Assembly (NCBI RefSeq): GCF_001854805.1
Contig: NZ_MBLO01000032.1
Location: 1,141 to 61,114 of the forward strand
Source: Pseudofrankia coriaricola
Lineage (GTDB): Bacteria > Actinomycetota > Actinomycetes > Frankiales > Frankiaceae
Direction of reading: 5' to 3'
DNA length: 59,974 nt
Shown here: positions 24,485 through 45,517 of the stretch, in pieces
How positions within the stretch are numbered: the first letter of the stretch is position 1
Layout of the letters: the number at the start of each line of letters is the position of its first letter
Translations under genes and position numbers: made by a program
The notes under the pieces: generated by a model
What the model was told of the DNA's origin: nothing
Database searches by the model: none
Seen by the model: the letters and a program-made list of their open reading frames with translations, nothing else

Positions 24485-25318
24485 ATGGAGATCGGCATCT
24501 CGGTGTTCCCCACCGATCGGACGATCGGGGTCATAGAACTCGCCGAGCAGGTCGAACAGCGCGGCTTCGAGTCGCTCTGGTTGACCGAGCACACCCACAT
24601 CCCGGTCTTCCGGGATCCGGACAGCCCTGCCGGGGGAGATATCGCGGAGCACTACAAGCGCACCCTCGACCCGTTCGTGGGGCTCACCGCCGCCGCCATG
24701 GTCACCAATACCCTGCGCCTCGGGTTCGGCATCCTGTTGCTCGTCCAGCGCGATCCGATCACCACTGCCAAAGCTGTCGCGAGCCTCGACCAGGTGTCCG
24801 GCGGCCGACTCATGTGCGGTGTGGGCGCCGGATGGATCCCTGAGGAGATCGCCAACCACGGCACCGTTGCCAGGACCCGGTTCAGACTGATGCACGAGCG
24901 AGTGCTCGCGATGCGCCGGCTATGGACCGACGACGAAGCCGAGTTCCACGGCGAGTTCGTGTCCTTCGACCCCGTCTGGCAGTGGCCCAAGCCCGTTCAG
25001 CATCCGTTCCCCTTGTACATCGCCGGAAACACGACGAACAGCATGGAGCGCGTGGTCGAGGCAGGCGAGGGCTGGTTCCCGGTGGGCAACAAGTGGTCGG
25101 AACGTGCCCGTCTGGTCCAACAGGTCGCGGAGTTCCGCGACCTGTGCGAGGTCCGGGGGCGCGATCGCCTGCCGGTCTCAGTCTACTCACCGGATCCCGC
25201 ACCCGATCCACTCGACGAGTTGCGTCAGGCAGGGGTCGATCGCGTCGTCCTCACGATCAGCCAGGAGTCACGGGAGGCCGCGCTGAGGGACCTCGACCTG
25301 TACCAGTCGCTTCTCTGA
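24485..25318 (+). CDS. F420-type luciferase-like oxidoreductase
   Basis: This is a 277-residue LLM-family protein. The ATG is preferred over the GTG one codon earlier because it sits at workable distance from GGAGG. Motifs are FESLWLTEHTHIPV, TNTLRLGFGILLLVQRDPI, and SGGRLMCGVGAGWIPEEIANHG, the usual flavin/F420 contact loops. The C-terminus has GVDRVVLTIS. Its last 51 bases overlap the end of the convergent exporter gene. The substrate is unknown; monooxygenation or carbonyl reduction is possible. Confidence 0.87.
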   Translation: MEIGISVFPTDRTIGVIELAEQVEQRGFESLWLTEHTHIPVFRDPDSPAGGDIAEHYKRTLDPFVGLTAAAMVTNTLRLGFGILLLVQRDPITTAKAVASLDQVSGGRLMCGVGAGWIPEEIANHGTVARTRFRLMHERVLAMRRLWTDDEAEFHGEFVSFDPVWQWPKPVQHPFPLYIAGNTTNSMERVVEAGEGWFPVGNKWSERARLVQQVAEFRDLCEVRGRDRLPVSVYSPDPAPDPLDELRQAGVDRVVLTISQESREAALRDLDLYQSLL

Positions 25319-26734
25319 ACGACTGTCGCGCCGTGGAAGGAAGAGCAGGCAGAGCGCGACGACCAGCAGCAGACCGCCGGCGTCGAGGGCCACCGAGGCC
25401 CGGCGCGTGAGCAACTCGGCGGGCGTCCGCCCCGATGCGTGCACCTGTCCCGAGATCGCGACCAGTGCAGCGAGCCCCACCGACCCACCGAGCTGGTGGG
25501 CTACGTTGACGAGCCCGGACGCAGCGCCAAAGTTCTCACTGCCTACGCCGTCCATGGCCATAACGGTCAGCGGGGCCAGGGCTAGCCCCTGCCCAGCTCC
25601 AACGCAGAGGATCGGCAGCGCGATCGCCGTCAGGTACGGCTCAGAGGGCTCCAACCGGCTGAGCCAGAACATGCCCGTCGCAGTGATGGCGAGGCCAACC
25701 GAGAGCACACATGTGTTGCCCCACCACTTCGTCAGGCGCGGCACAGCGAGCGCCGTCACGATGTTGATCAGAGTCATGGGTAGAAAGGCGAGGCCTGCGG
25801 CCAGAGCGGAGTAGCCCAGGACGTCCTGCAGGTAACGCGAGACGAAGAACCAGAAGCCGAGCATGGCTCCGAGATACAGGAAACGACCCGCGTACGCCAC
25901 GGAGCGTTGCCGGCTGCGGAACAGCGCGAGCGGGATGATGGGCTCCGACACCCGCTCCTCATTGACCAGCGTGGCCGTCAGCAGGAGCACCCCGGCGACC
26001 AGGGCGCCGAGCGTTAATGGGTCGGACCACCCCGAGCCGGCGGCACGTACCAGCCCCAGCACGAGCGCGGACATGCCGGCCGTCGATGCGAGCGAGCCTG
26101 CGAGGTCGAAGTCGCCCGGTCGGCGCGCCGTCTCGTCGATGCTCCGGAATGTCGCGGCGACCAGGACCAGCCCTATCGGCACGTTGAAGAAGAAGCCCGC
26201 CCTCCAGCCGACGGTGTCTGTCAGGAGTCCCCCGGCGACGAGCCCGAGCGTCGCCCCGAAGCCGGCGACGGATCCGTAGTACGCGACCGCTCTCGTCCGC
26301 GGTCGTCCTTCCGGGAAACCGACGGCGAGCAGGGCGAGGGTCGAGGGCGCAATCAACGCAGCTGCGACCCCCTGCAGAGCGCGTCCGGCGAGGAGTAGGG
26401 TCGGCGTCCCCGCGAGGCCGACGATCGGCGACGCGGCGACGAAGCAGAGAAGGCCCGCCACGAGGACGCGACGACGGCCGAGGATGTCTCCGGCACGAGC
26501 CCCGAGGAGCAACAGCCCGCCGAATGCCAAGGTATACGCCGACTGGACCCACGCTAGTCCGGCGGTGGTGAAACGCAGATCGCTGTGGATGCGGGGCAGT
26601 GCCGTGACGACAAGCGCCACGTTCATCACGATCATCAGGTAGCTGATCAGGATGATCGCGAGGAGTGCTCGCGGACGCGCTCCTGTTCCGGCGACGGAGG
26701 ATGCGGGCGCGACGCGCGACGGGTCCGGTGTCAC
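25268..26734 (-). CDS. MFS drug/solute exporter, DHA2 (14-helix) type
   Basis: This is a roughly 488-residue membrane protein with 13-14 predicted hydrophobic helices. It has the family A-motif ARAGDILGRRRVLVAGLL and the antiporter motif C-like GPxxGG equivalent, GATLGLVAGGLLTDTVGWR. The GTG start overlaps the stop of the upstream stress-protein gene (GTGA); an ATG nine codons earlier is also possible. Family members export hydrophobic compounds with proton antiport. At the end of the BKACE operon, it may remove a toxic intermediate or bring substrate across. Confidence 0.85.
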   Translation of the reverse strand: MTPDPSRVAPASSVAGTGARPRALLAIILISYLMIVMNVALVVTALPRIHSDLRFTTAGLAWVQSAYTLAFGGLLLLGARAGDILGRRRVLVAGLLCFVAASPIVGLAGTPTLLLAGRALQGVAAALIAPSTLALLAVGFPEGRPRTRAVAYYGSVAGFGATLGLVAGGLLTDTVGWRAGFFFNVPIGLVLVAATFRSIDETARRPGDFDLAGSLASTAGMSALVLGLVRAAGSGWSDPLTLGALVAGVLLLTATLVNEERVSEPIIPLALFRSRQRSVAYAGRFLYLGAMLGFWFFVSRYLQDVLGYSALAAGLAFLPMTLINIVTALAVPRLTKWWGNTCVLSVGLAITATGMFWLSRLEPSEPYLTAIALPILCVGAGQGLALAPLTVMAMDGVGSENFGAASGLVNVAHQLGGSVGLAALVAISGQVHASGRTPAELLTRRASVALDAGGLLLVVALCLLFLPRRDSRSEKRLVQVEVPQRGLP

Positions 26735-27135
26735 TGAGCCTTGACGGCGAGAACCGGACACGTAGCACCGAGCAGGATGCGCTGGGCATTGCTTCCCAGG
26801 ATTAGCTTCCCCACCGGCGTTCGGTTACGGAGGCCGGTGCCCAGGTCGGCGTCCACCTCCGCGGCGATCGAGACCACGTCCTCGGGGACACTTCCACCGG
26901 CGGTCAGGGGTCGAACCCCGAACCGGACACCCGAGTCCTGTAGCAGGCGGGCAACAGGGTCCATGGCCTCATCGACCTCGACACCGTCGACGACGACGGA
27001 GCCACCGTCGGGCTTCGGGAAGACCACGAGGAGGAGGGCATCACGATGCCGGGCCTCCACGATCCCTCGCGCCAGTGTCGCCGCACCTTGCGGCGTGGGG
27101 ACGTAACCGACCACGACCGGATTGCCGATGCTCAC
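26731..27135 (-). CDS. Universal stress protein family
   Basis: This 134-residue UspA-type protein has an N-terminal NPVVVGYVPTPQGAATL and a C-terminal ATP-binding G-x2-G-x9-G-S pattern in GKLILGSNAQRILLGATCPV. One residue appears missing in the strand before this motif compared with most relatives (DADLGTGLRNR). It sits between the BKACE and exporter genes in one leftward operon and probably has a regulatory role under energy or starvation stress. Confidence 0.85.
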   Translation of the reverse strand: MSIGNPVVVGYVPTPQGAATLARGIVEARHRDALLLVVFPKPDGGSVVVDGVEVDEAMDPVARLLQDSGVRFGVRPLTAGGSVPEDVVSIAAEVDADLGTGLRNRTPVGKLILGSNAQRILLGATCPVLAVKAQ

Positions 27136-27174
27136 GTCGTTCCTCCCTCTCCAGACGGCCTCGATCGCTTGCCG

Positions 27175-28110
27175 CTACACCTTGATGGAGTCGCTGCCCT
27201 TGAGCTCCAGCATCTGGCGAGCATCGTCGGGCGTCGCGATGTCGTGGCCGAGTTCGTCGAGGAGTCGCGCGACCTTTGCGACCTGCTCGGCGTTGCTCTC
27301 CGCAAGCCTTCCCTGGGTCAGGTAGAGGCTGTCCTCCAGCCCCACACGGACGTTTCCGCCGAGGAGAGCGGAGGCCGTCGCGAAGGTCATCTGATGCCGT
27401 CCCGCACCGAACGCCGACAGGTAGTAGTCGTCGCCGAACAGCTTGTCGGCGATGCTCACCATGTGGGTCAGGTTGTCCACGTCGGGACCGATCCCACCGA
27501 GGATCCCGAAGACCGCCTGGATGAAGAACGGTGGCTCGGCCAGCCCTTTGTTGACGACGTGCGCGAGGTTGTAGAGGTGGCCCACGTCGTAGCACTCGAA
27601 CTCGAAGCGGGTCCCGCGCTCTTTGCCCAGGCGGAGCAGGCTCGTCTCGATCTGGGCGAACGTGTTGACGAAGATGCTGTCTGCCGACCCCAGGACGTAC
27701 GGCTTCTCCCAGTCGTAGCGCCACTCGCGCTCGCGCTCGGCGGCGCCGGCGAAGTTGAAGTTGATCGAACCCATGTTGAGTGATGCCACTTCGGGTTCGA
27801 AGACCAGCGCAGCCTCGAGTCTCTGCTCGACCGTCATGGTCATCGCCCCACCGGTGGTGATGTTGATGACGGCGTCGGTGTCGCGCGCCAGCGCCGTGAC
27901 GAACGGACGGTAGACCTCCGGATCCGAAGCGGGGCGCCCGTCGACCGGATCGCGAGCGTGGACGTGGAGGATCGCCGCGCCGGCCGACACCGCCGCCAGT
28001 CCCTGCTCGATCATCTCGTCGGCGGTGACCGGGAGGCCGGGCGACATCGACGGGGTGTGCACCGACCCGGTCAACGCACAAGAAATGATGGTCTTGTGGC
28101 TTCGCCTCAT
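27175..28110 (-). CDS. Beta-keto acid cleavage enzyme (BKACE, DUF849 family)
   Basis: This 311-residue TIM-barrel zinc enzyme condenses a beta-keto acid with acetyl-CoA, releasing acetoacetate and a new acyl-CoA in characterised relatives. The zinc histidines lie in AAILHVHARDP, and family signatures NITTGGAM and GVFGILGGIGPDVDNLTHM-like segments are present (here AVFGILGGIGPDVDNL). The ATG is chosen because the conserved start KTIISCALTGS follows directly. It has its own promoter and heads a BKACE-Usp-exporter operon immediately downstream of the hyuAB/zinc-ribbon/SDR operon. This suggests that it processes the beta-keto acid a ketone carboxylase would make. Confidence 0.9.
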   Translation of the reverse strand: MRRSHKTIISCALTGSVHTPSMSPGLPVTADEMIEQGLAAVSAGAAILHVHARDPVDGRPASDPEVYRPFVTALARDTDAVINITTGGAMTMTVEQRLEAALVFEPEVASLNMGSINFNFAGAAEREREWRYDWEKPYVLGSADSIFVNTFAQIETSLLRLGKERGTRFEFECYDVGHLYNLAHVVNKGLAEPPFFIQAVFGILGGIGPDVDNLTHMVSIADKLFGDDYYLSAFGAGRHQMTFATASALLGGNVRVGLEDSLYLTQGRLAESNAEQVAKVARLLDELGHDIATPDDARQMLELKGSDSIKV

Positions 28111-28180
28111 GCTGCCCGTCCTCGCTCCATCGCCGGCAGGTGGTCGTGGTCGACGCGAACCTCGAACGCGCCGACTATCT

Positions 28181-28198
28181 CTGATTATCATAGAAATG
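28181..28198 (-). promoter_or_regulatory. Promoter of the BKACE operon
   Basis: Leftward, TATGAT (28192-28187) is followed by AATCAGAGATAG, one of the recurrent elements. It is about 77 bases upstream of the BKACE start codon. Confidence 0.55.
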
Positions 28199-28201
28199 AA
28201 C

Positions 28202-28330
28202 TCACGCGTCGCGGGCGACCACTACGCCGTAAGGCTCGCGCGCCGTGTAGCCGAACTGCCCCGGAATACCTCCCAGCACCCGGCCTTCGCCCTTTCCGAC
28301 GTGGCCCTCGTGGTACCAGGGATTCCCTTT
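28202..28330 (-). pseudogene. 43-codon relic of a second ALDH-like pseudoenzyme gene
   Basis: The leftward frame gives GRVLGGIPGQFGYTAREPYG, which matches GRVFGGIPGQFGYTAREPYD of the non-catalytic ALDH-like protein near 10-11 kb. WYHEGHVGKGEG before it corresponds to IRYYSGLVGKVDG. Everything before and after is gone, and the frame ends in TGA soon after. The rest of the gap between the SDR and BKACE genes is promoter. Confidence 0.8.
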
Positions 28331-28351
28331 GACGCAACAGACGTGACGGAA

Positions 28352-29254
28352 TCACGCACCCAGCGACGGAACCTGCTGCTGGAGCTCCCACAACCGCGTT
28401 CCCACGAACGGAGTGATCCCCGGAGGCTGGATGCTGGTCCCCGCATCCACCGGCAACGCGATACCGGTCACGTACTTCGCCTCCTCCGATGCCAGGTAGA
28501 GGACGGCACTCGCCACCGCCTCCGGTTCGATCCATGGAACCGGCAGGAGGTTGAGCGACGTGGCCGGCCACTCCATGTCCTCGATAGTCTTCGTCGGGTC
28601 GTCACCGCAGAACGCCCTGACGTGGTGCGGGTTCAGGAACAGCGGCGTTGCGACCGCGCACGGACAGACGGCGTTCGCACGGATCCAGTAGTGCGCCAGT
28701 TCAGCAGCCAAGGTCTTGACCATGCCGATGAGTCCCCACTTCGCCGAGACGTATGCAGCCTGGTTGAACAGGCCGGTCAAGGCCGCGGACGAGGCAGTGA
28801 CGGTGATCGACCCGCCGTTGTCGCGCAGGTGAGGGACGGCCGCCCGAGCCGTGCGCCAGACGCCCGACAGGTTGGTGTCGATGATCAGATCCCAGATGGC
28901 GTCCTCCGCCTCCGGACCCTCGACGGTGTGCGGAATGGTGATGCCGTGGTTGATGACGACCGTGTCGATGTGGCCGAGTTCGGCGACGGTGTCGGCCATG
29001 ACGGCCCGCATCGCGGCAGGGTCGCGGGCGTCGGCCTTGAAGCTGAGGCAGCGCCGTCCAAGCGCCTCGACGGCCGCCACCGTCTCGGCGAGCTCGTCGA
29101 CGGTACCCATGGGATAGGGAACGTCGGGGTACTGGGCGCAAGCATCGGTGATGGCGATCTCGGCACCCTCCGCCGCCAGGCGGACGGCATGCGCTCGGCC
29201 CTGACCGCGAGCACCGCCGGTGATCACGGCCACCTTTCCCGACATCCGATCCAT
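28352..29254 (-). CDS. SDR family oxidoreductase, mycofactocin-associated type
   Basis: This is a 300-residue SDR; the ATG is chosen for AAGGAG seven bases upstream. Motifs are GKVAVITGGARGQGRAHAVR, the insertion YPMGTVDELAETVAAVEALG, VINHGITI, TASSAALTG, and YVSAKWGLIGMVKTL. The insertion after the second beta strand and the GARGQGRxHA pattern are characteristic of actinobacterial SDRs that hold NAD tightly and use mycofactocin as electron carrier. This functional point is inference from the subgroup. It follows hyuB by 81 bases and would supply the ketone (or oxidise an alcohol) for that complex. Confidence 0.87.
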   Translation of the reverse strand: MDRMSGKVAVITGGARGQGRAHAVRLAAEGAEIAITDACAQYPDVPYPMGTVDELAETVAAVEALGRRCLSFKADARDPAAMRAVMADTVAELGHIDTVVINHGITIPHTVEGPEAEDAIWDLIIDTNLSGVWRTARAAVPHLRDNGGSITVTASSAALTGLFNQAAYVSAKWGLIGMVKTLAAELAHYWIRANAVCPCAVATPLFLNPHHVRAFCGDDPTKTIEDMEWPATSLNLLPVPWIEPEAVASAVLYLASEEAKYVTGIALPVDAGTSIQPPGITPFVGTRLWELQQQVPSLGA

Positions 29255-29335
29255 CGCACATCTCCTTCCATCGCAGTTCAGACACCCGCGGCGCGGGCCG
29301 CGAAGCAGGGACCGGCGTCGCCGCACCTGGGGTCC

Positions 29336-31279
29336 TCAGCTGAGCCTGGTCGTGCCCGCCTCGAGCTCGGCGCGCAGTGCCGCCGTGGCGCGGACGTCGA
29401 CCTTCACGCCCTCGGGGTCGGTCTGCGGATCCCCCACCACGACGACGCCGTAGTCCCGCGCGGCTCCCGCGATCGACACGTACTCGTCCCGGACGTCCCG
29501 GGCCACACGCTCCGGGTCCCTCGTCAGTGCGGCACCCCAGCCGCCGCCGCCGTTGGTGCGATAGCGGAACATGGCTCCCGGCCCGGTTTTCCAGGTCGCG
29601 ACACGCCCGAAGTAGGCGTACACCCCGTCCGGAGTCGGGAGGCGAGTGTCCGGATGGACGACGCCCGCAAGTGCGGTGGATCCCAGGTAGGACGAGTCCT
29701 CGATGCCCGGGAACGCGATATCCGCGGTTCCCTCCTGGTCGAGGATCCACACGCCGCCCATCCGGCCGGCATCACCACCGTTGACGCCTGTCCCAGAGGG
29801 AGCCTTGAACCGCAGCGGAGTCGTGTAGTGCTCGGCGTCGTCCAGGTAACGGACGTCCTTGATCGTCCCGGAACCGCCTCGGTGCCGTCCCGGGCCTCCG
29901 GTGTCCGGCACGTACTCCTTGCGCGCGATGACGACCGGCACGGAAGCCTCGATCCCCTCAGTGGCTGGTGACATTGTGTTCACGAAGTAGAGCGCGTTGT
30001 AGCCGTCTCCGTCGCCCTCACGGCTCGCGCCCCAGGCACCCCACTCACCGCCGCATTCGGACAGGCTCTGCCAGGTGGTGCCGTCGCCGCGCGTGCCCTG
30101 GGCGTTGTGCGTGCTCGTGGAGCCGTAGTCCCCCCCGATACTCCGGTCACCGAGCACGTCCTTGAGCGCCACGATGATGGCGGCGAGGATGGCGGACGAC
30201 ACCTCCCAGTAGAAGAAGATGGCGCCATCCGGGGGAAGCGCACTCGCGACCGTGCCAGGAGGGATCACCACATCGATGTGCCGGAAGCTTCCCGAGGTGA
30301 AGGGCGATCTGACACCGGTGGCCATGTTGAGCCCCACGCCGACCGCCGTCTTCGCGTCGAGGGCGCCGGCGTTGATGCAGGTCTGCGCCTGCCGGGACGA
30401 GCCGCTCAGGTCGACCTCGACCCGCGCACCCCGTTTGATCACCTTGACGACCACGTCGTACTGCTCGTCCGTGGCGTTGTCCGCGTCGAGGATGGCGGTC
30501 CCCGTGTAGTCACCGTCCGCAACGCTCGCGAGCGCGTCCGCGATCTCTTCGGCCGACCGGTCCGTGGCGAACCGCATCGATCCGAGCATCGCCGCGCGGC
30601 CGTAGCGCTCCACGCTCTCGCGGAACATCGACAGTCCTAGTGCACAGCTCTCGTTGATGGTGCGGATGTCAGGCAGGAGCAGCTGCCCCCAGCGCGCGTT
30701 GTCGAAGATGAGGCTGAAAGTGGACCGCACAGGCGTTCCCTGCGAGTACAGCAGGATGGGCGGGAGAACGAGACCGTTCTCGTACGAGTCGGTCTTCTTG
30801 GCGCCGAAGCCCCCCGGCACCGAGCCACCCATGTCGAGCTGATGGGCACGGATGACGATGAATCCGCTGATTCTGTTCTCGAAGAACGCCGGCGCAACGA
30901 ACATCAGATCGTTCACGTGGCAGCCGGCGCGGTTCGGGTCGTTGGCTATCAGGAGGTCGCCGACGCGGAGGTTCTCGGGCCCGTACTCCTCCACCGTGTT
31001 GCGGACCGCGTCCGAAAGTGTGCCCAGGAAGAGGGCGAGCCCGTTGTTGACCGCGGGCATCGGGTAGTCCAGCTCCGGCGGTCCGACGACCGCCGTCGCG
31101 AAGTCGCTCATATACGAGATGATCGGAGAGAAGGCCTTGTGCAGAAGACCCGTCGCCATGTGCCCGCAGATGTAGCGCAGCCGGTTGCTGAGCACCGACG
31201 CGGTGAACCGGTCGCACCCGTAGGACTCCTGGAACTGCTCATCCTTGAGGTCGCGCAGGGCGACTGACGTGGTCGTCAT
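29336..31279 (-). CDS. hyuB: Hydantoinase B / oxoprolinase family subunit (copy 2)
   Basis: This is a 647-residue HyuB-type subunit. It shows LRVGDLLIANDPNRAGCHVN, HQLDMGGSVPGGFGAKKTDS, SGTGVNGGDAGRMGG and YRTNGGGGWGAALTRDPERV. Divergence from copy 1 is high (for example NDPNRAGCH versus NDPWRGTIH), which points to a different substrate rather than a recent duplication. It lies 15 bases after hyuA and ends without the C-terminal extension seen in copy 3. Confidence 0.9.
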   Translation of the reverse strand: MTTTSVALRDLKDEQFQESYGCDRFTASVLSNRLRYICGHMATGLLHKAFSPIISYMSDFATAVVGPPELDYPMPAVNNGLALFLGTLSDAVRNTVEEYGPENLRVGDLLIANDPNRAGCHVNDLMFVAPAFFENRISGFIVIRAHQLDMGGSVPGGFGAKKTDSYENGLVLPPILLYSQGTPVRSTFSLIFDNARWGQLLLPDIRTINESCALGLSMFRESVERYGRAAMLGSMRFATDRSAEEIADALASVADGDYTGTAILDADNATDEQYDVVVKVIKRGARVEVDLSGSSRQAQTCINAGALDAKTAVGVGLNMATGVRSPFTSGSFRHIDVVIPPGTVASALPPDGAIFFYWEVSSAILAAIIVALKDVLGDRSIGGDYGSTSTHNAQGTRGDGTTWQSLSECGGEWGAWGASREGDGDGYNALYFVNTMSPATEGIEASVPVVIARKEYVPDTGGPGRHRGGSGTIKDVRYLDDAEHYTTPLRFKAPSGTGVNGGDAGRMGGVWILDQEGTADIAFPGIEDSSYLGSTALAGVVHPDTRLPTPDGVYAYFGRVATWKTGPGAMFRYRTNGGGGWGAALTRDPERVARDVRDEYVSIAGAARDYGVVVVGDPQTDPEGVKVDVRATAALRAELEAGTTRLS

Positions 31280-31294
31280 GTGGGAGGAGTCCTC

Positions 31295-33328
31295 TCACCG
31301 CTCGCTGTTCGTATCAGAGGTGATGACGATTTCGCCGTACCGGCCCACCGTGGCCAGTTGCCCCTGGTGGACGTGGACGGTGCCGAGCCTCTCGCGGACG
31401 ATGGCGGGTCCCCGGAAGGCGTCCCCGGCCCGCAGATCGGTGCGCTCGTACACGTCCGCAAGCTGTTCCTCGTCACCGATGAAACGCAACGGGGTGCTCG
31501 CGCGAGGCACGAGCGCCGCTCCCTCCCGGCGCGGCAGCACCGGATACTGAACCTTGGGTGTCGGCAGGATCGCGCTGACGCGATAGGTGGCGCCCTGGAC
31601 CGGGATGGCCTCAAAGCGAGCGCCGGACCGTTCGGCGTACACGTCATGGAAGCCGGCCACCATCGCGGCGATCCCCTTGACGCCGAGTGTCCCGTCAGGA
31701 ACGGGGATGAAGGGGGTCTCCCACGCCTGACCGAGCAGCCGTCCGTCGAAAGAACGCACGATGGTCGCGGTGTCGGCCTCGGCACCCAGGCGACTCCGCA
31801 GGGCGCTCTCGAGCTCCAGGTAGATCGCGTCGATTCCATCGGCGGCGGATTCGTCCAGCACCGTGTAGTGGCTACGGCTGTCGGTGAAGACCCGGTCCGC
31901 GGATAGCAGCCCCAGAGCGGAGAAGAGGCCGGCGTGCGGAGGCACGATGACGCTTCGGGCGTGGACGAGCTCGAGGATCGCGGGAAGCAGCATCGGTCCT
32001 GCCGCGCCGTACGCCACCAGGTCGTAGTCGCGGGGATCCACTCCCGCACGCACGATCTGGTTGAAGACGCCCTCGGCGATGTTGTGGACCGCGATCCCGT
32101 AGGCGTGTGCGATCCGCTGCTCCACGGGACTGTGCGTGTCCAGTTTCTCGAAGGCGCGCCAGGAGGCGTCACGATCCAGGAAGCCGGAGGCGAATCGGTC
32201 CGGGTCGATGATCCCTACGAGAAGGCAGGTGTCCGTGGTCGTGGGCTGGACTCCGCCTTTGCCGTAGCACGCGGGACCCGGATCCGCCCCGGCGCTCGCC
32301 GGCCCGACCACGATCTCTCCCGTGGGGCCGACCGAGACGATGCTGCCGCCGCCCGCTCCGATCGCGTGCACCTGGCTGGAGAGCGTGTTCACGACGAGGT
32401 CGTGCTCGATTTCGAAGGTCGTGTCGACGGTCGGTGAACCGTTGCGGACGATGCTGATGTCGCAGGAGGTCCCGCCGATGTCGGCACAGACGAGGTCGGA
32501 CCTGCCGATCAGGCTGCCGAAGTACGCGGCGGAGACGGCCCCGGCAGCAGGGCCGGAGAAGACGATCCGGCTGGGCACGTTCATGGCGTCATCCACCGGG
32601 GACAGCTGGGCGGCACAGTCCGCGAAGTTCATCTGTCCCCGGAAGCCGACCTTCTCCAGGCCGTCCTGGAGCAGCTTGGTGTACGGCCCGTAGACGATCT
32701 TCATCGTGACGTCGATGACCGTGGTGGACGCGCGAGGGTACTCGCGGGCGAGTGGAGAGACCCTGCTCGAGACCGAGACCGGGATGTCTCCCAGGACGGC
32801 GCGGACGAGTTCCGCCAGGCGCTCCTCGTGCGCGCCGTTCACGTACGAGTTGATCAGGCAGATGGCGATCCCACGGACGCCGCAGCGACCAAGCAGCTCG
32901 ATCTCGCGACGTGCCTGGTCCTCGTCGAGGTCCTGGTAGACCCGCCCGTCGGCCAGCGTCCGCTCGCTGGCTCCCCGGCGCAGGTAGCGCGGCACGACCG
33001 GTGCGGTCGAGTCGCCGAAGGACCGCCGCCAGTGCGCGTCTGTGACCGCGTCATTCGGCCGCCAGCTCTGCGCCATGTCCAGCACGTCACGATGGCCGGC
33101 CGTGGTCAGGAATCCGACCTTGGGTAAGTTCCTGGTGAGGATGGCGTTGAGTCCATGGGTGCTGGCGTGGTTGAACACCGGCGCCTCCGGCACGTTGACC
33201 AGGTCTGCGCTGGCCAGCACGGACAGGTGCGTGTCACGCACGTTCGTCGGCACCTTGTAGGCCCGGATCTCGCCGTCCTCGACGGCGATGATGTCCGTGA
33301 AGGTGCCGCCGACGTCGATGCCGATCAT
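31295..33328 (-). CDS. hyuA: Hydantoinase A / oxoprolinase family ATP-binding subunit (copy 2)
   Basis: This 677-residue protein starts directly at the phosphate loop MIGIDVGGTFTDIIAVEDG, with GAGGAGG upstream. NHASTHGLNAIL, the second motif VCADIGGTSCDISI, and the C-terminal GPAIVRERLGTVHV follow. It is the ATP-using subunit paired with the next gene. It follows a zinc-ribbon gene by nine bases, so the gene order zinc ribbon-hyuA-hyuB differs from copy 1, where the zinc ribbon is last. Confidence 0.91.
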   Translation of the reverse strand: MIGIDVGGTFTDIIAVEDGEIRAYKVPTNVRDTHLSVLASADLVNVPEAPVFNHASTHGLNAILTRNLPKVGFLTTAGHRDVLDMAQSWRPNDAVTDAHWRRSFGDSTAPVVPRYLRRGASERTLADGRVYQDLDEDQARREIELLGRCGVRGIAICLINSYVNGAHEERLAELVRAVLGDIPVSVSSRVSPLAREYPRASTTVIDVTMKIVYGPYTKLLQDGLEKVGFRGQMNFADCAAQLSPVDDAMNVPSRIVFSGPAAGAVSAAYFGSLIGRSDLVCADIGGTSCDISIVRNGSPTVDTTFEIEHDLVVNTLSSQVHAIGAGGGSIVSVGPTGEIVVGPASAGADPGPACYGKGGVQPTTTDTCLLVGIIDPDRFASGFLDRDASWRAFEKLDTHSPVEQRIAHAYGIAVHNIAEGVFNQIVRAGVDPRDYDLVAYGAAGPMLLPAILELVHARSVIVPPHAGLFSALGLLSADRVFTDSRSHYTVLDESAADGIDAIYLELESALRSRLGAEADTATIVRSFDGRLLGQAWETPFIPVPDGTLGVKGIAAMVAGFHDVYAERSGARFEAIPVQGATYRVSAILPTPKVQYPVLPRREGAALVPRASTPLRFIGDEEQLADVYERTDLRAGDAFRGPAIVRERLGTVHVHQGQLATVGRYGEIVITSDTNSER

Positions 33329-33337
33329 TTTGCCTCC

Positions 33338-33562
33338 TCAGACCGTGTCGGACAGCAGCTGGATGTAGCCGAGCAACGGACCCCGCTCGCGGGCCACCGA
33401 GTGCAGGCAGGCCTGGCACTTGACGACGTCGAACCACCCGCGCTCCTCGAGCACCGGGTACGACGCGAGCTCGGCTGCCCCGCACGCGGGACACGTCCCT
33501 GGGGCCGGGGTGCGGTCGACACTCAGGTGGGTCTGCTGCGGTCGAGGATGTGCAACGGTCAT
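33338..33562 (-). CDS. Small zinc-ribbon protein, possible third subunit of HyuA/HyuB
   Basis: This is a 74-residue protein starting at the ATG with GGAGAG six bases upstream. Cysteines 24/27 (TCPACGA) and 49/52 (KCQACL) have the same CxxC-x21-CxxC spacing as the protein next to hyuB copy 1. YPVLEERGWFDVV between them parallels YPVANYLGPRMVT. It lies nine bases before hyuA and 50 bases after the upstream ALDH gene. I infer a zinc-binding small subunit like those of ketone carboxylases; no catalytic role is visible. Confidence 0.78.
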   Translation of the reverse strand: MTVAHPRPQQTHLSVDRTPAPGTCPACGAAELASYPVLEERGWFDVVKCQACLHSVARERGPLLGYIQLLSDTV

Positions 33563-33611
33563 GGCGAACTCTCCCTGGGACAGAACGGGCGCACGAGCAA
33601 GGGAACGCCTC

Positions 33612-35099
33612 TCATGACGAGAGGTCGATGTAGACGCACTTCTCGTAGAGGAAGGCGTCAACGTGCCCCGGGCCGCCCTTCACGCCGTAGCCGCTCATGC
33701 GGTGGCCGTTCATGCCCACGGTCATGTCGAGCAGGCCGTAGCAGTTGACCCAGACGCTGCCGGAACGGATCCCGTTCACCATCGTCATGACGGTCGTCGT
33801 GTCACGGGTCCACACGGCTCCACCGAGGCCGAAGGGCGTGTCGTTTGCGAGTACCAGCGCCTCCTCGACGTCGTCGAACGGCAGCACCGACACCACAGGG
33901 CCGAAGATCTCCTCGCGAGCGATGGTCATGTCCGGCGTCACGTCAGAGAAGACGGTCGGCTGCACGAAGAACCCGTCCGCCAGGTCGCCGCCCAGCCGAG
34001 CCCCGCCCGCGGCCAGCGTCGCCCCCTCGGGCCCCGCCCCCTCGACATAGCCCAGGACGCGGTCGAGCTGGGCCTGCGACGCGACAGGCCCCATCTGGAC
34101 GTCCGGGTCGATGCCGTTGCCGACGCGCAGGGACGCCGAGAAGTCCACCAGGCGCGAGACGAACTCGTCATGGACGCTGCGTTGCACGAGCAGACGGGTG
34201 CCGGCGGTGCAGATCTGCCCGGAGTTGTTGAACACCCCCATCGCGGCCCCCGGGACGGCGCGGTCGAGGTCCGCGTCCGCGAAGACGATGTCGGGTGATT
34301 TTCCGCCCAGTTCGACCTGGACCCGCTTCATGTTGCTCACCGACGCCTCGACCACACGCCGTCCGGTCTCGACGGAACCGGTGAACACGACGCGGTCGAC
34401 ATCGGGGTGCGCCGCCAGCGCACCCCCCGCCGCACCGTGACCGGTCACGACGTTGACCACGCCCGGTGGCACGCCTGCCTCCTCGAGCAGACGGGCCATG
34501 TAGAGCACCGAGAGGGACGTGTACTCGCCGGGCTTCAGCACGACAGTGCAGCCGGTCGCGAGAGCACCGCCGACCGTGAACCACTCCCCGACCAGAGGGC
34601 TGTTCCAGGCCAGGATCCCGCCCACCACTCCGAGCGGCGCCTTGATCGTCATTGTCATCACGTCGCCGGCGAGATTGTTCGGCAGGGTCGAGCCACCGAC
34701 ATTCACCGTCTGCGCCCCGAAGTACGCGATGGTCTGCAGGACGAAGCTCTTGAGCCCCCGCGAACGTGTGATCGGCGAGCCCAGGTCGAGTGTTTCGAGA
34801 AGAGCCATCTCATCGAAGCGCTGGTCGACGAGGTCGTGGATCCGCATCAGCAACGCTTGGCGCTCATAGGGCTTCCAGCGCGACCAAGGGCCCTCGAACG
34901 CCCGACGGGCCGCCCGCACCGCACGATCGACGTCCTCGTGATCTCCGTCCGCGAGATGAGTCAGGACCTGCCCCGTCGCGGGATTGAGGGTGGGGAAGGT
35001 CTTGCCTGAGGCGGAGTCGACGACGGCGCCGCCGATCACGTGCCCGAGGCGCGAGGCCAGGAACGAGTGCGGTGCCGTGTTCTCCTTCATGGAGGTCAT
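33612..35099 (-). CDS. NAD(P)-dependent aldehyde dehydrogenase
   Basis: This 495-residue ALDH has complete catalytic residues: VELGGKSPDIV, SGQICTAGTR, ILAWNSPLVGEW and EEIFGPVVSVLP. It is the first gene of the leftward operon that continues with the zinc ribbon, hyuA, hyuB and SDR. A recurrent-type promoter lies 120-140 bases upstream. It may clear an aldehyde formed earlier in the same route; specificity is unknown. Confidence 0.9.
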   Translation of the reverse strand: MTSMKENTAPHSFLASRLGHVIGGAVVDSASGKTFPTLNPATGQVLTHLADGDHEDVDRAVRAARRAFEGPWSRWKPYERQALLMRIHDLVDQRFDEMALLETLDLGSPITRSRGLKSFVLQTIAYFGAQTVNVGGSTLPNNLAGDVMTMTIKAPLGVVGGILAWNSPLVGEWFTVGGALATGCTVVLKPGEYTSLSVLYMARLLEEAGVPPGVVNVVTGHGAAGGALAAHPDVDRVVFTGSVETGRRVVEASVSNMKRVQVELGGKSPDIVFADADLDRAVPGAAMGVFNNSGQICTAGTRLLVQRSVHDEFVSRLVDFSASLRVGNGIDPDVQMGPVASQAQLDRVLGYVEGAGPEGATLAAGGARLGGDLADGFFVQPTVFSDVTPDMTIAREEIFGPVVSVLPFDDVEEALVLANDTPFGLGGAVWTRDTTTVMTMVNGIRSGSVWVNCYGLLDMTVGMNGHRMSGYGVKGGPGHVDAFLYEKCVYIDLSS

Positions 35100-35251: not shown

Positions 35252-36196
35252 TTATTTGCCAGCAGGACGCGAGGCCTTCAGAACGGCGTCCAGCCGCTCC
35301 GGGTCGACGGCGATCTCCACGCCCGCCCGCTCGAGCTGAAGCGTGAGGAACACCCGGGCGTCCAGATCGCCGAGGCCGCGCTGGATCGCCGCCGCCATCT
35401 CGTCGCGCGTCATCTCCGCCATCCTCATCGGGACGTCGTGGTCGGTCCCTAGCGCGGCGCCCAGCGAGAGGTCCTTGTGGGCCAGCTTGAGCGGCATCGC
35501 CGGTGGGTCAAACTTGCCCGGCAGGAACTGCTTGGTGAGCATGTCGAGGGGCGACCGCTTCCCGACGACCCCCAGCCGGATGGACTCCCAGAGGTCCAGC
35601 GGGTCGACCCCCGCCTTGACGGCGACGGAGAACGTCTCGGCCAGTGCGAGCTGGATGATGGAACCGAGCATGTTGTGGCAGAGCTTGGTCACCGTCCCGG
35701 CACCGGATGCGCCGACATAGTGGGTTTTGTCCCCCATTGTCGTCAGGACGGGCAAGCAGCGTTCGTACACCGCACGGTCACCACCGACCCAGATCGCCAG
35801 GTCACCCGAGGCCGCACCCGCCGGACCTCCGCTCACCGGGGCATCCAGGAACGAGAGGTCGCGGCGCAGGCACTCGTCGTGGATCTCCTTCTGGAGCGAC
35901 AACGAGTTCGTCGACAGGTCCGCCAGGATCGTGCCCGGCCGAGCGTTCTCGACCAGGCCACCCGAGCCCAGGAAGACCGCCTGCGCCTCCGGCGGACCGG
36001 GCAGCGACGCGAAGATCACGTCGCAACGACGAGCGACCTCGGCGATGTCCGAGGCGGGCGTCGCGCCTGCGGCAGCGAGCAGGTCCACGGGCTCCGCGCT
36101 GGTGTCGAAGACGAGCACCTGACGTCCGGACCGCCGCACCAGGTTCGTGGCCATGCCCTGACCCATCCGGCCCAGGCCGATGAATCCGATCGCCAT
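35252..36196 (-). CDS. 3-hydroxyisobutyrate dehydrogenase family (beta-hydroxyacid dehydrogenase)
   Basis: This 314-residue NAD(P)-dependent beta-hydroxyacid dehydrogenase has its ATG start following AGGAGGAG. The Rossmann loop MAIGFIGLGRMGQGMATNL is at the N-terminus. The substrate signature LDAPVSGGPAGAASGDLAIW and the catalytic lysine region AGTVTKLCHNMLG follow. It oxidises 3-hydroxyisobutyrate-like acids to semialdehydes, or works in reverse. It is the last gene of the six-gene operon that begins with enoyl-CoA hydratase and CoA-transferases, so valine-type or related branched hydroxyacids are plausible substrates. Confidence 0.88.
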   Translation of the reverse strand: MAIGFIGLGRMGQGMATNLVRRSGRQVLVFDTSAEPVDLLAAAGATPASDIAEVARRCDVIFASLPGPPEAQAVFLGSGGLVENARPGTILADLSTNSLSLQKEIHDECLRRDLSFLDAPVSGGPAGAASGDLAIWVGGDRAVYERCLPVLTTMGDKTHYVGASGAGTVTKLCHNMLGSIIQLALAETFSVAVKAGVDPLDLWESIRLGVVGKRSPLDMLTKQFLPGKFDPPAMPLKLAHKDLSLGAALGTDHDVPMRMAEMTRDEMAAAIQRGLGDLDARVFLTLQLERAGVEIAVDPERLDAVLKASRPAGK

Positions 36197-36272: not shown

Positions 36273-36647
36273 TCAGATGTCGAGTTCCTCGAAGACCTTG
36301 CTGGCGATCGCGAACGAGGAGAGTCCGGCCGGCATGCCGGCGTACACGGCCACCTGCAACAGACATTCGCGAATCTCGGCCTTGCTGAGACCGTTCGTGA
36401 TCCCGCTCCGTACGTGCCCGGCCAGCTGGTCGGGTCGGTTGAGGGCGGCGAGCATCCCGATGTTGAGAATGCTCCGGCTGCGGCGGTCCAGCTCGGGCCG
36501 GGTCCAGACGGTGCCCCAGCAGAACTCCGTGAGGATGTCCTGCATGGGCTTGTTGAAGTCGTCCGCGTTCCTCGCCGCGTCGACCACCGCGTTGCCCGCA
36601 ACCTCGCGCCGAACGGCCTCGCCTGCTGAGTAGGTGCTCTCGTCCAT
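36273..36647 (-). CDS. Carboxymuconolactone decarboxylase family protein
   Basis: This 124-residue all-helical CMD-fold protein shows DILTEFCWGTVWTRPELDRR, SRSILNIGMLAAL, ELAGH-like QLAGHVRSGITNGLSKAEI and RECLLQVAVYAGMPAG. It lacks the CxxC of AhpD-type peroxidases. It is closer to 4-carboxymuconolactone decarboxylase proteins, though similar genes in acyl-CoA clusters have no proven reaction. It lies between ALDH and the hydroxyacid dehydrogenase in the same operon. Confidence 0.83.
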   Translation of the reverse strand: MDESTYSAGEAVRREVAGNAVVDAARNADDFNKPMQDILTEFCWGTVWTRPELDRRSRSILNIGMLAALNRPDQLAGHVRSGITNGLSKAEIRECLLQVAVYAGMPAGLSSFAIASKVFEELDI

Positions 36648-36728: not shown

Positions 36729-38180
36729 TCAGTGTGCAGTGTGGATAGTCTGGATCTGGGTGAACTCGTGCATGCCCCAGATGCCGTTCTCGATCCCGAT
36801 GCCACTCCACTTCGCACCTGCGAATGGCGCGGAGGGGGTAGTGATGGCGTGGGTGTTAACCCAGGCGGTGCCGACCTCGAGACGCGCCGCGACGTCGCGG
36901 CCGCGGTCCTCGTCGGAGGTCCAGACCGAGCCCCCCAGCCCGTACGGGCCACGATTGGCCCGCCCGAGTGCGTCATCCAGGTGGGTGTAGGCCAGCACCG
37001 GAAGCACCGGACCGAACTGCTCCTGATCGACCACCGCCATCCCGTCCTCGACGCCGGTGAGGATCGTCGGCGGGTAGAAGTAGCCCGGACTCTCGATCGG
37101 CGTCCCGCCCGTGACCGCTCGGGCACCACGGCTGAGCGCGTCGTCGACGAGACTCGTGACGATCTCGAGCTGCGCTCGATTGTTGAGCGGCCCGAACTCT
37201 GTCCCGGGTTCCATACCGTTGCCGACCACACTGTTGCGGGCATACCCGGCCAAGGAGTCGACGACGTCGTCGAAGAGCCGCTCGTGTACGTACACGCGCT
37301 TGATCGCCGCGCAGGTCTGACCACAGTTCACGAACGCCCGGTCGAACAGACCCTGCCCGATCAAGGCCGGATCGGCATCGTCGAGCACGATCGCCGGATC
37401 GTTGCCGCCCAACTCCAACGTCGCCCGCTTCAGGTCCGGCGCCACCGCCGCCGCAACAAGTTTTCCGGTCGCGGTCGACCCGGTGAACGTCACCTTGCGC
37501 GTCAACGGGTGCGAGGTCAGCCAACCCCCCAGCTCGGAGCCGCCACCACTCACTGCGCTGACCACACCCGGCGGAAAGACCGACTGCAGCACCTCCACCG
37601 CCTTCAGCGTGGCAAAAGGGGTGTACGGCGAAGGCTTGATCACCAACGTGTTGCCTGGACGCAGCGCCTGCGCCGCCTTCTTCATCGCCATCTGGATCGG
37701 GAAGTTCCAGGCACAGATCGCTACCGCCACCCCCAGGGGCCGGCGGTGCACAGTCACCGTACGTTCGGTGCCGTCCTCGACCATCTCGGGCGCGGACAGG
37801 TCCAGATCGGCGTACCAGCGCAACCAGGTCGCACTGGTCGACACCTCTGCCAAGGACCCCGAGAACGGCTTGCCCTGCTCCGCGGTCAGCAGCAGTGCCA
37901 GTTCCGAGGCCGACGCCTCCAGCGCATCCGCCGCCGCACGCAACGCCGCACACCGCGCCGCATCGTCGGCACGCCAGGAAACGAAGGCCCGCGCCGCCGA
38001 CTCCATGACCGCGTCGACCTGCGCCCGTGACGCGTCCGGCGCATCGGCAAACCGCTCCCCCGTCGCCGGGTTCACCACCTCGAACGTCCCCGCGCCCGGC
38101 ACCGGACGACCATCGACGGTCAGCGACACACCCGCGGCCAGCCCGGTCAACGCGCCTGTCGAAACCCCTACGATCGACAT
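36729..38180 (-). CDS. NAD(P)-dependent aldehyde dehydrogenase
   Basis: This 483-residue ALDH has TLELGGNDPAIVLDD with the general-base glutamate, CGQTCAAIKRVYV with the catalytic cysteine, and ICAWNFPIQMAMKK with the oxyanion asparagine. The C-terminus SGIGIENGIWGMHEFTQIQT is normal. It lies 76 bases downstream of the CoA-transferase and 81 bases upstream of the CMD gene. Oxidation of a semialdehyde made by the beta-hydroxyacid dehydrogenase encoded downstream is a sensible reading. Confidence 0.9.
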   Translation of the reverse strand: MSIVGVSTGALTGLAAGVSLTVDGRPVPGAGTFEVVNPATGERFADAPDASRAQVDAVMESAARAFVSWRADDAARCAALRAAADALEASASELALLLTAEQGKPFSGSLAEVSTSATWLRWYADLDLSAPEMVEDGTERTVTVHRRPLGVAVAICAWNFPIQMAMKKAAQALRPGNTLVIKPSPYTPFATLKAVEVLQSVFPPGVVSAVSGGGSELGGWLTSHPLTRKVTFTGSTATGKLVAAAVAPDLKRATLELGGNDPAIVLDDADPALIGQGLFDRAFVNCGQTCAAIKRVYVHERLFDDVVDSLAGYARNSVVGNGMEPGTEFGPLNNRAQLEIVTSLVDDALSRGARAVTGGTPIESPGYFYPPTILTGVEDGMAVVDQEQFGPVLPVLAYTHLDDALGRANRGPYGLGGSVWTSDEDRGRDVAARLEVGTAWVNTHAITTPSAPFAGAKWSGIGIENGIWGMHEFTQIQTIHTAH

Positions 38181-38256: not shown

Positions 38257-39519
38257 TTAGTGGGTGCGGGGCAGCTTCTTGGCCGCCGCGAAGAGTCCCT
38301 CACGGTGGTCCGGGTGACTGATTCCGGCCAGTGCCTCGGCGCGCTCACCGGCGGACAGGAAGCGCAGATCCGCCACGCCGTACTCGGTGACGACGTGCTG
38401 CACGAGTGTTCGCGGCACGGTCACCAATCCCTTTGAGAGGACCGGCACGATGCGCGATGCCCCGCGGACGGTGGTCGAAGGAAGGGCGACGATCGACATG
38501 TTGCCGGCCAACTGCGCGCCGAGCATGAAGTCGACGCTGCCACCGATGCCACCGGCCTGCCCGCCCCGGAGCACCTCGGAGTTGAGCTGGCCGTACAGAT
38601 CGATCTCGAGGGTGGAGTTGATCGAGACGAACCTCTCCCACCTGGCCAACGCCTCCAGGCTGTGCGTGTGCAGGCCGTTCTGGAGATTCACGGCGGGGTT
38701 GCGGTCCACCCACCGATAGAGGTCCGGCGAACCGACGACCTCACCGACCACGGCCGCAGGGCCGTCCGACATGCAGCGCCCGGACTCGATCAGCGCTCGC
38801 CCTCCGTCGGTGAGCATGCCCGTGATCCGGAGATCCGTGCGGTCGGTGTCGACGAGCGTCTGGCACACGGCCTCCGGCACCGTTCCGATGCCGCACTGGA
38901 TGGTCGCGCCGTTCGGGATGAGGTCGGCGACGAGACAGCCGATCTCTGCGTCCAGAGGGCCCGGCGTCCGATGCGGGTACGCCCGCAACGGTGCCTCATG
39001 CATGACCACGAAGTCGATCTCGGACTCATGAATGAGCGAATCGCCCAAGGTGAAAGGCATCCGGGGGTTGACATGTGCGATGACCACGGTCGCCCGCCTC
39101 GCCAGCAGCGGGGTGAGACTCGAACTGATCCCGAAGCTGTGGTTGCCGTCGGCGTCCGCCGGCGACACCTGCACAAGTGCCACGTCGATGTCCGCGCCCT
39201 CGACGTAACGACAGGTCTGCGACCACGACATCGGGAGGAAGTCCACGGCCGGCCCCATCTCGGCGTCGACGTTCGACGTGCCTGGCATGAACCATGTGTT
39301 CAGCCGCACGGACGCCCCGAGCTCCGGTGCCATGGCGCGATAACCGTCGAGGAGCATGCCTCCCAGCAGTGTCAGCGCGCCCACCGAGCGGGCGCGCTGC
39401 GCCAGCGCCTCGAGGAGCACAACCGGCTCGGAGCTCAGTGAGCCGGTGGCGACGAGCATTCCGGACTGCACGGCGCGCATGGCCTCGTCCGCCGAGACGA
39501 CCTGGGGTGAATCCGACAT
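38257..39519 (-). CDS. Acetyl-CoA hydrolase/transferase (4-hydroxybutyrate CoA-transferase type)
   Basis: This 420-residue protein has the standard family features TLEIDLYGQLNSEVLRGG, GGIGGSVDFMLGA and VVTEYGVADLRFLSAGERAE. The first includes the glutamate that forms the CoA thioester in characterised members. It is a clear paralogue of the gene near 12 kb. It lies between the type III CoA-transferase gene and the ALDH gene in the same operon, so this pathway has two alternative ways to activate a carboxylic acid. Confidence 0.9.
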   Translation of the reverse strand: MSDSPQVVSADEAMRAVQSGMLVATGSLSSEPVVLLEALAQRARSVGALTLLGGMLLDGYRAMAPELGASVRLNTWFMPGTSNVDAEMGPAVDFLPMSWSQTCRYVEGADIDVALVQVSPADADGNHSFGISSSLTPLLARRATVVIAHVNPRMPFTLGDSLIHESEIDFVVMHEAPLRAYPHRTPGPLDAEIGCLVADLIPNGATIQCGIGTVPEAVCQTLVDTDRTDLRITGMLTDGGRALIESGRCMSDGPAAVVGEVVGSPDLYRWVDRNPAVNLQNGLHTHSLEALARWERFVSINSTLEIDLYGQLNSEVLRGGQAGGIGGSVDFMLGAQLAGNMSIVALPSTTVRGASRIVPVLSKGLVTVPRTLVQHVVTEYGVADLRFLSAGERAEALAGISHPDHREGLFAAAKKLPRTH

Positions 39520-40756: not shown

Positions 40757-41589
40757 TTGCGCCACTCCGGCGTCTGGGTGCCCGGCCAGAACTCGTCGAG
40801 GCCGAGGGTGTGCAGCGAGCGTTCCTGGCCGAAGACTGCTGGACGCTTCTCGTCGAAGGACGCGAACCCCTCGAGCGCGTCCGCGGTGTGGAAGCTGCGC
40901 TTGGTGACCGCCTCCTCCCACTCCAGGGCCTCGTCCCAGCCCAGATCCAGATTGTCGTAGGCAAGTCGCTTCGTGGCCTGCACTGCGCCCGGGCTGAAGG
41001 ACGCGATCGTGGTGGCGATATCCATGGCTTCGGCCATCGCCCCGCCAGGTTCGGTCAACCGTTGGGCCAGCCCGATGCGATGTGCCTCGGCACCGTCGAC
41101 GTACTTCGAGAGCAGCAGGATCTCGATCGCGTTGCCCACGCCTACGAGCCGGCTGAGCCGGGTCGCCTGGGTGGCCCCGTTGGCGACTCCACGCTTGAGT
41201 CCGGACGGCCCCATTCTGGACGACGTCGAAACGACCCGGATGTCGCAGTAGAGGGCCAGGCTGAACCCTCCACCGACGGCGAACCCGTCGATGGCGGCGA
41301 TGACCGGTTTGTAGAATCGCCAAGGCTTGTGCAGGGCTGTGCGGTCCTTCGTGGCGCCTGCCCCGACCACGCTGTCGGCCACGTAGTCCGGGATGTAACC
41401 GCCCGCACAGAAGGCTTTGTCGCCGGCGCCCGTGATGACGAGCACCCGCACGTCGTCATTGGAGACGACATCGGCGTAGGCGTCGAGAAGCTGCGTCGAC
41501 ATCTCCGGGTCCACGGCGTTCCGTTTCTCGGGGTTGTTGATGACGATCGTCGCGACGTGATCGCTGACGCCGTAGTCGATCTGACCCAC
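40753..41589 (-). CDS. Enoyl-CoA hydratase/isomerase family protein
   Basis: This 278-residue crotonase-fold protein starts at the GTG with AGGAGG six bases upstream. Oxyanion-hole segments are KAFCAGGYIPDYV and GFAVGGGFSLALYCDIRVV. The usual glutamate position reads SGLKRGVANGATQA, unlike FGAPEVNIG in the other hydratases here. It may therefore be an isomerase, dehalogenase-like or C-C bond enzyme rather than a hydratase. It heads the six-gene leftward operon and is coupled to the CaiB gene. Confidence 0.85.
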   Translation of the reverse strand: MGQIDYGVSDHVATIVINNPEKRNAVDPEMSTQLLDAYADVVSNDDVRVLVITGAGDKAFCAGGYIPDYVADSVVGAGATKDRTALHKPWRFYKPVIAAIDGFAVGGGFSLALYCDIRVVSTSSRMGPSGLKRGVANGATQATRLSRLVGVGNAIEILLLSKYVDGAEAHRIGLAQRLTEPGGAMAEAMDIATTIASFSPGAVQATKRLAYDNLDLGWDEALEWEEAVTKRSFHTADALEGFASFDEKRPAVFGQERSLHTLGLDEFWPGTQTPEWRK

Positions 41590-45512: not shown

Positions 45513-45517
45513 AGAAC

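Follow-up and report, generated by a model that had tools for sequence, protein, structure and literature searches.

Which reaction is served by a row of eight genes in Pseudofrankia coriaricola in which a HyuA/HyuB pair of the hydantoinase family stands between a small zinc ribbon and a beta-keto acid cleavage enzyme (BKACE)? The row lies on contig NZ_MBLO01000032.1, in a stretch of 59,974 nucleotides (hereafter the window) that forms part of an 11.2-Mb draft genome, and the initial annotation had read it as a route in which a short-chain dehydrogenase/reductase (SDR), a ketone carboxylase and BKACE act in turn. The zinc ribbon (gamma), HyuA (alpha) and HyuB (beta) form a conserved gene unit and represent a new form of HyuAB with three parts. 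That its second step is ketone carboxylation, feeding BKACE in this lineage, is the likeliest of the readings compared, at a little under an even chance; the pathway is plausible and unproven, and it is not a conserved system.

All eight genes are on the minus strand and belong to the families originally named. They begin with an aldehyde dehydrogenase (ALDH_1, 495 aa, 33612..35099; Pfam Aldedh 517.9 bits), for which no NCBIfam model exceeded its cut-off among the 25 of 45 models listed. There follow the 74-aa zinc ribbon with the pattern CxxC-x21-CxxC, the proposed third HyuAB subunit (33338..33562), HyuA, the ATP-binding subunit (677 aa, 31295..33328; Pfam Hydantoinase_A 210.5 bits and Hydant_A_N 122.7 bits), and HyuB, the metal-site subunit (647 aa, 29336..31279; Pfam Hydantoinase_B 367.2 bits), separated by 49, 9 and 15 bases in that order. 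The row continues with a 300-aa SDR (28352..29254) and BKACE (DUF849, 311 aa, 27175..28110; PF05853 332.4 bits), and ends with a universal stress protein (Usp) family member (26731..27135; Pfam Usp 40.8 bits) and a DHA2/EmrB-like transporter of the major facilitator superfamily (MFS; 25268..26761; Pfam MFS_1 155.6 bits; TIGR00711 200.5 bits, below its cut-off of 230.2). BKACE and Usp are 39 bases apart, and the transporter gene overlaps that of the stress protein by 31 bases and reaches beyond the end first assigned to the row. The mycofactocin type of the SDR was borne out by TIGR03971 (329.4 bits, cut-off 300) and by a mycofactocin maturase gene in the same genome (601.5 bits, cut-off 265); mycofactocin SDRs are usually alcohol dehydrogenases.

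The conserved unit emerges from the relatives of HyuA, which fall into a compact clade at 52-60% identity, the next best relative reaching 37% among the matches listed. A tblastn search of 72,556 plasmids, with the best 40 of 734 matching records examined, ranked four records at 58-59% before a drop to 34%. Scanning genome contigs with two peptide patterns, of which the best 80 matches were kept so that further clade members are possible, gave at least ten loci at 52-60%, followed by others at 29-37% among the matches listed. Two of 35 genomes of the same family were positive (the window's own and one with a 55% homologue), as were two of 393 genomes in a class-wide sample, the window's own included (limit E 1e-150, with no more than three candidates scored per listed genome). 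The resulting set comprises at least 16 loci, window included, and is spread over one Burkholderia and three Rhodococcus plasmids, Actinomycetospora, Gordonia, Conexibacter, Amycolatopsis, Ramlibacter and proteobacterial bins. A hyuA fragment from R. opacus (locus L010, 5409-5942) lies near an IS1182 transposase and is 80-82% identical to the other Rhodococcus copies of the clade.

A zinc ribbon gene stands upstream of hyuA in every clade locus where its presence can be judged (15/15; the sixteenth, L020, starts within hyuA), and its four cysteines are kept in 11 of these, window included. A profile built from the 15 ribbons was run not only over the clade loci and the open stretches of the window but also over 70 distant HyuA loci and further regions. 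Outside the clade, it picked out only gamma-2, a second ribbon in the window (2493..2750, minus strand, start approximate; E 6.3e-9), and the ribbon of one of the 70 distant loci, L036 (E 3.6e-11), which belongs to the sister clade; all remaining matches, over the 70 distant loci and the other regions, had E of at least 1.3. Gamma-2 lies beside a sister system to the main one, HyuAB_2 (HyuB_2 2767-4695 and HyuA_2 4708-6777, together 2767..6777, minus strand, assigned by Pfam), and L036 encodes a 56% relative of this same pair. In the sample examined, the ribbon is thus the mark of a single HyuA clade, one that falls on the hydantoinase side. The co-occurrence of hyuAB with the zinc ribbon, proposed at the outset as a check, holds in all testable loci, and that with BKACE (DUF849) extends to one clade locus in 16. 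In Actinomycetospora, an HyuAB_2 with its own ribbon (E 2e-16) is located about 7 kb from that organism's copy of the main system.

From family, motifs and conservation, the three products are predicted to form a three-part enzyme, in which HyuA would phosphorylate a carbonyl oxygen with ATP, HyuB would hold the metal site of the second step, and gamma would bind zinc and contact its partner subunits. The ATP motifs of HyuA are intact (DVGGTFTD at 5, DIGGTSCD at 283, GADPGP at 347), and D59, H121, D124 and H146 of HyuB align in all 16 HyuB compared. These motifs are common to the branches compared, so that neither the metal nor the ATP residues discriminate between a carboxylase and a hydrolase.

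If the second step is carboxylation, the SDR would convert a secondary alcohol to a ketone, the HyuAB enzyme would combine the ketone with bicarbonate to give a beta-keto acid, and BKACE would, in this lineage, cleave this acid with acetyl-CoA into acetoacetate and acyl-CoA. In relatives without BKACE nearby, the beta-keto acid would be handled by an acyl-CoA ligase. Further genes of the array could have accessory roles, its CoA transferases in acetoacetate recycling and ALDH in acting on a side or upstream aldehyde. A close parallel is acetophenone carboxylase (Apc) of Aromatoleum, which likewise combines HyuA- and HyuB-type subunits with a small four-cysteine subunit encoded in the order gamma-alpha-beta. 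Both Apc and acetone carboxylase (Acx) are reported to possess such a subunit and the hydantoinases to be without it (PMC5214803), an account of subunit composition with which the caprolactamase and acetone carboxylase papers concur (PMC8453981, PMC5543143), the former attributing greater complexity to Apc and Acx than to CapAB and lactamases related to it. A small four-cysteine subunit therefore favours carboxylation; since that of Apc lies far from the active site and a direct part in the reaction is unlikely (PMC5214803), the presence of the ribbon is to be read as a marker and not as a mechanism. The proposed product, a beta-keto acid, is also that of Apc, whose operon encodes a benzoylacetate-CoA ligase (PMC5214803), and a ligase is found nearby in several clade loci, as detailed below. 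AcxABC shares the three-part alpha-beta-gamma composition. The hydantoinases and CapAB have ATP and metal motifs like those of the window's pair but, as far as the available text reports, only two subunits, a shorter HyuB and no zinc ribbon. HyuB of the window is intermediate in size, longer than CapB (581 aa, within a range of 564-594 aa for hydantoinase and lactamase HyuB) and shorter than ApcD (684 aa; PMC8453981); the 11 of 16 clade members measured span 644-656 aa.

Several observations, given in this and the following paragraphs, weigh against carboxylation or its link to BKACE. The ribbon cysteines are lost in four of the 15 loci (three Rhodococcus, one Gordonia), where SEGGWY and VVK or VIK are retained. 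No PDB entry matched the ribbon at E up to 10. The acetone carboxylase gamma family, PF08882, matched elsewhere in the genome, on another contig (C271, 103.2 bits), and with the limit set at E 1 no further contig was matched; the ribbon was not among its matches. Searches of Pfam and NCBIfam returned DUF6510 and a few NCBIfam models for the window's ribbon, all below cut-off, and none of the 15 ribbons exceeded an NCBIfam cut-off, the best match being VdcD, the small subunit of hydroxyarylic acid decarboxylases (E 0.003). A fold model of the ribbon (mean predicted local distance difference test score 79.5) resembled chains of RNA polymerase complexes most closely (E 0.18), and no Apc or Acx chain occurred in the best 50 of its 152 fold matches. 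The identification of the ribbon as an Apc or Acx gamma is consequently unsupported, PF08882, PDB, NCBIfam and fold matches all being negative.

HyuA itself points the same way, its best solved relative being an N-methylhydantoinase (300.7 bits), ahead of ApcC (223.6). In a midpoint-rooted tree of 47 rows (four references, 14 of the 16 clade members, 25 hand-picked loci from the 70 distant ones, HyuA_2, HyuA_3 and two plasmid rows), the main clade, HyuA_2 and L036 form one group (support 100/98), the clade lies inside a 39-row hydantoinase-like group that includes the N-methylhydantoinase (100/100), and ApcC and AcxA pair apart from it (100/99). In this tree 14 of 44 inner branches are open, Apc and Acx have one reference each, AcxA and the Niveispirillum sequence sit on long branches, and the placement of AcxA was called unsure by the program. 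The likeness to the known ketone carboxylases has limits of other kinds too: no alpha' subunit as in Apc was recognised in the window row, gamma is without detectable sequence kinship to the Apc subunit, and BKACE replaces the ligase in this lineage. AcxABC differs in its gene order and in a HyuB-type subunit of 776 aa against 647 aa here.

The hydantoinase-side position of HyuA also suits the main rival reading, rather unlikely but deserving serious weight: together with gamma, HyuAB would open a ring hydrolytically at the expense of ATP and yield a beta-hydroxy acid, which the SDR would oxidise to the beta-keto acid that BKACE cleaves. The SDR would then act between HyuAB and BKACE, matching the gene order HyuA-HyuB-SDR-BKACE-Usp-MFS, and comparable arrangements are described. 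A putative operon of P. simiae comprises a lactonase, an SDR, BKACE and two MFS genes; its SDR was shown to oxidise deoxyribonate, BKACE cleavage was proposed from mutants, and beta-hydroxy acid oxidation is the simpler meaning proposed there for an SDR adjoining BKACE, a further point against carboxylation (PMC6365646). In phloroglucinol degradation, a cyclohydrolase and a dehydrogenase precede triacetate lyase, a BKACE-family enzyme whose cleavage of triacetate has been shown (PMC10470551). Both pathways share with the window a dehydrogenase, BKACE and the products acetoacetate and acyl-CoA, but in them the ring is opened by a lactonase or a cyclohydrolase, and no HyuAB is named in the available text. 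Moreover, when six other genomes of the class sample with the nearest BKACE homologues were inspected (E up to 1e-90), an SDR lay within 2 kb of BKACE in four, and none of the six had HyuAB within about 9 kb. Set against ring opening, the known lactamases of the family are reported, in the text available, without a small zinc subunit (PMC5214803, PMC8453981), and an SDR occurs without BKACE in eight of the 15 other clade loci. No nitrogen-handling gene was recognised among the annotated genes of the array, and the usual alcohol dehydrogenase activity of mycofactocin SDRs fits this reading less well.

The window's BKACE would be suited to the product of a ketone carboxylase. Its catalytic HxH and RxGLED motifs are intact (HVHARD at 49, RVGLED at 255), and it exceeds the cut-off of NF053538, a model named for 3,5-dioxohexanoate (491.7 bits, cut-off 430), while the lysine-type and 3-oxoadipate-type models remain below theirs. 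Benzoylacetate and beta-ketohexanoate, both product types of ketone carboxylation, are reported substrates of family members, which show much promiscuity (PMC4922564). The substrates of BKACE are free beta-keto acids (PMC6365646). From mutant fitness data on deoxyribonate use, one bacterium was proposed to employ a CoA synthetase and a thiolase and three others BKACE (PMC6365646); by analogy, BKACE in place of a ligase in this lineage may represent the same exchange.

The distribution of BKACE is less favourable to a link with HyuAB. It lies beside the clade's HyuAB in one of 16 loci, that of the window, and in none of the 70 distant HyuA loci; a looser search of the loci added one weak match at the edge of L029. 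Four of the 16 clade loci are short contigs of 5 to 9 kb, where a distant BKACE would escape detection. BKACE was present in all six clade genomes that could be searched (11 matches), but none of the BKACE regions inspected from them, 8 of the 11, contained HyuAB. Among the four clade plasmid records, a single 30-bit match was detected, far from HyuAB on the plasmid of Rhodococcus rhodochrous GD02, and among 20 relatives of the window genome BKACE was present in 10. Such genome-level presence is not used as support, because BKACE is placed elsewhere where inspected and is confounded by lifestyle. As a conserved system, the HyuAB-BKACE combination is rejected in this clade, with its one locus in 16.

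These counts raise the alternative, unlikely though far from negligible, that the two halves of the row are chance neighbours, gamma-HyuAB serving one substrate and SDR-BKACE-Usp-MFS having arrived as a unit of its own when a catabolic island was rearranged. The nearest BKACE homologues (76% and 73%) have branched-chain-type ATP-binding cassette (ABC) transporter genes in their vicinity and no HyuAB. Within the row, the SDR and BKACE genes are separated by 241 bases, which leaves room for more than one transcript; neither a promoter-like nor a terminator-like site was detected in this gap by a consensus scan, which is weak evidence, and an Rfam scan gave nothing useful. The window also holds three HyuAB pairs in 60 kb and a transposase-like gene at its edge. 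On the other side, all genes share one strand, HyuB and the SDR are 81 bases apart, and the G+C content is similar along the row (0.65-0.70). The transposase-like gene, of DDE type (347-1195), and a partial ABC ATPase (6865-7362) are possible signs of rearrangement.

Recurrence elsewhere also speaks against chance. In Niveispirillum cyanobacteriorum, BKACE (58% identical), HyuA, HyuB and an SDR stand in a row (L115, 14935-21158), and on Mesorhizobium pMLa HyuA, HyuB, BKACE (29%) and an SDR follow one another with 4-base overlaps among these first four genes (L128, 7992-18530). HyuA of both is 32-33% identical to that of the window, and the gamma profile has no match in the Niveispirillum locus. 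A joined BKACE and HyuA query matched 1216 plasmid records and was covered to at least 80% in one place in two, both Mesorhizobium, the Niveispirillum record reaching 76%; a joined HyuB and BKACE query gave three of 1166, all Mesorhizobium. With HyuAB, BKACE and SDR together in two further lineages and few joined matches, the set was assembled more than once, but rarely. The Niveispirillum row additionally encodes a carboxymuconolactone decarboxylase (CMD)-like protein and adjoins an apparent protocatechuate/gallate 4,5-cleavage lower pathway, both judged by eye, and the Mesorhizobium row carries a branched-chain ABC transporter. In Pleomorphomonas (L116, 2910-9782), genes labelled apc3 and apc4 stand beside genes labelled 6-hydroxynicotinate reductase and NicR, neighbours that make the acetophenone label look doubtful.

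In the other clade loci, BKACE may be replaced by an AMP-forming acyl-CoA ligase. Such a gene was detected in 6 of the 16 (three Rhodococcus, Gordonia, Actinomycetospora, Amycolatopsis) and in 3 of the 70 distant HyuA loci, and an SDR in 9 of 16 against 10 of 70; the neighbour panel was partly drawn from the clade's own loci, which inflates these contrasts. The initially proposed route was supported in part: the dedicated ribbon, the ligases, the reported BKACE substrates and the mycofactocin maturase speak for it, and the tree position, the unlikeness of the ribbon to Apc and Acx gamma, the single clade locus with BKACE and the simpler meaning of the SDR speak against it or leave it unproven. 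Three ligases surround HyuAB_2 in Actinomycetospora. On the plasmid of R. rhodochrous GD02, an acetovanillone degrader, the clade HyuAB with a ribbon lacking the cysteines (L009, 11654-16020) lies beside a CoA ligase and a nitronate-monooxygenase-like gene; the 26 kb displayed contain no gene with an hpe or acp label, and the hpe and acp genes were not mapped.

It is highly improbable that HyuAB acts not on free ketones but, in the manner of the Aromatoleum indoleacetate gamma-lactamase, on CoA thioesters or free acids that CaiB and the CoA transferase nearby would supply. Such genes are present in the array, CaiB occurs in 6 of 16 clade loci and one family member is reported to be a lactamase of CoA esters (PMC5214803). 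Yet CaiB is only mildly commoner than in the distant control loci (16 of 70), and the use of free beta-keto acids by BKACE also argues against this alternative.

There is precedent for ketone carboxylation followed by beta-keto acid processing, by means of a biotin carboxylase and further enzymes (PMC9618137, PMC13101465). The Hpe and Acv systems for hydroxyphenylethanones share this logic with the carboxylation proposed here, but proceed through phosphorylation by a kinase and then a biotin carboxylase, and end with a ligase and a hydrolase (HpeE, HpeF) or with VceA/VceB. An HyuAB-BKACE route was not found in the literature searched, whose coverage excludes most subscription journals; within it, the combinations of DUF849 with hydantoinase, hydantoinase with zinc ribbon, and acetylacetone with acetone carboxylase returned none. 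A bolder extension, which we consider doubtful, is that the window encodes a third kind of ATP-dependent ketone carboxylase, of hydantoinase-side origin, with its own zinc-ribbon subunit gained independently of Apc and Acx, and coupled to BKACE. The coupled enzymes would consume bicarbonate, ATP and acetyl-CoA in turning a ketone into an acyl-CoA, with no CoA ligase; in the simplest NF053538-type case, acetylacetone would be carboxylated to 3,5-dioxohexanoate and cleaved to acetoacetate and acetoacetyl-CoA.

HyuAB pairs are common and few are characterised, and a ribbon gene that marks one supported clade offers a testable sign of a three-part enzyme on the hydantoinase side. Were it a carboxylase, carboxylation would have evolved more than once in the family and would provide a further biotin-free entry to ketone catabolism which, with BKACE, needs no CoA ligase; were it ring-opening, BKACE would receive the product of a so far unassigned ATP-dependent hydrolase. 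In both cases a function could be given to genes on Rhodococcus plasmids, among them one from strain GD02, which degrades lignin-derived ketones.

The row closes a longer array of genes on one strand, which runs from about 46.8 to 25.3 kb. Upstream of ALDH, and likewise on the minus strand, lie genes for a 314-aa 3-hydroxyisobutyrate-dehydrogenase-like protein (35252..36196; Pfam NAD_binding_2 and NAD_binding_11), a CMD family protein (36273..36647; Pfam CMD 64.9 bits) and a second aldehyde dehydrogenase (36729..38180), for which none of the 25 of 43 NCBIfam ALDH models listed was over cut-off. Next come an acetyl-CoA hydrolase/transferase family protein (38257..39519; Pfam AcetylCoA_hyd_C 148.2 bits), which could activate acetoacetate or acyl groups, and the CaiB-type CoA transferase, an open frame with unsettled start (39587..40798; 36% identity by tblastn with a CaiB panel). 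The head of the array (40753..46801) encodes an enoyl-CoA hydratase, an SDR detected by tblastn only, and an ABC importer (permease, ATPase, Peripla_BP_4), the others being assigned by Pfam. On the plus strand, the third HyuAB pair (698 and 696 aa, 53315-57535) is flanked on both sides by zinc-type alcohol dehydrogenase genes, and three of the five HyuB matches in the genome lie inside the window.

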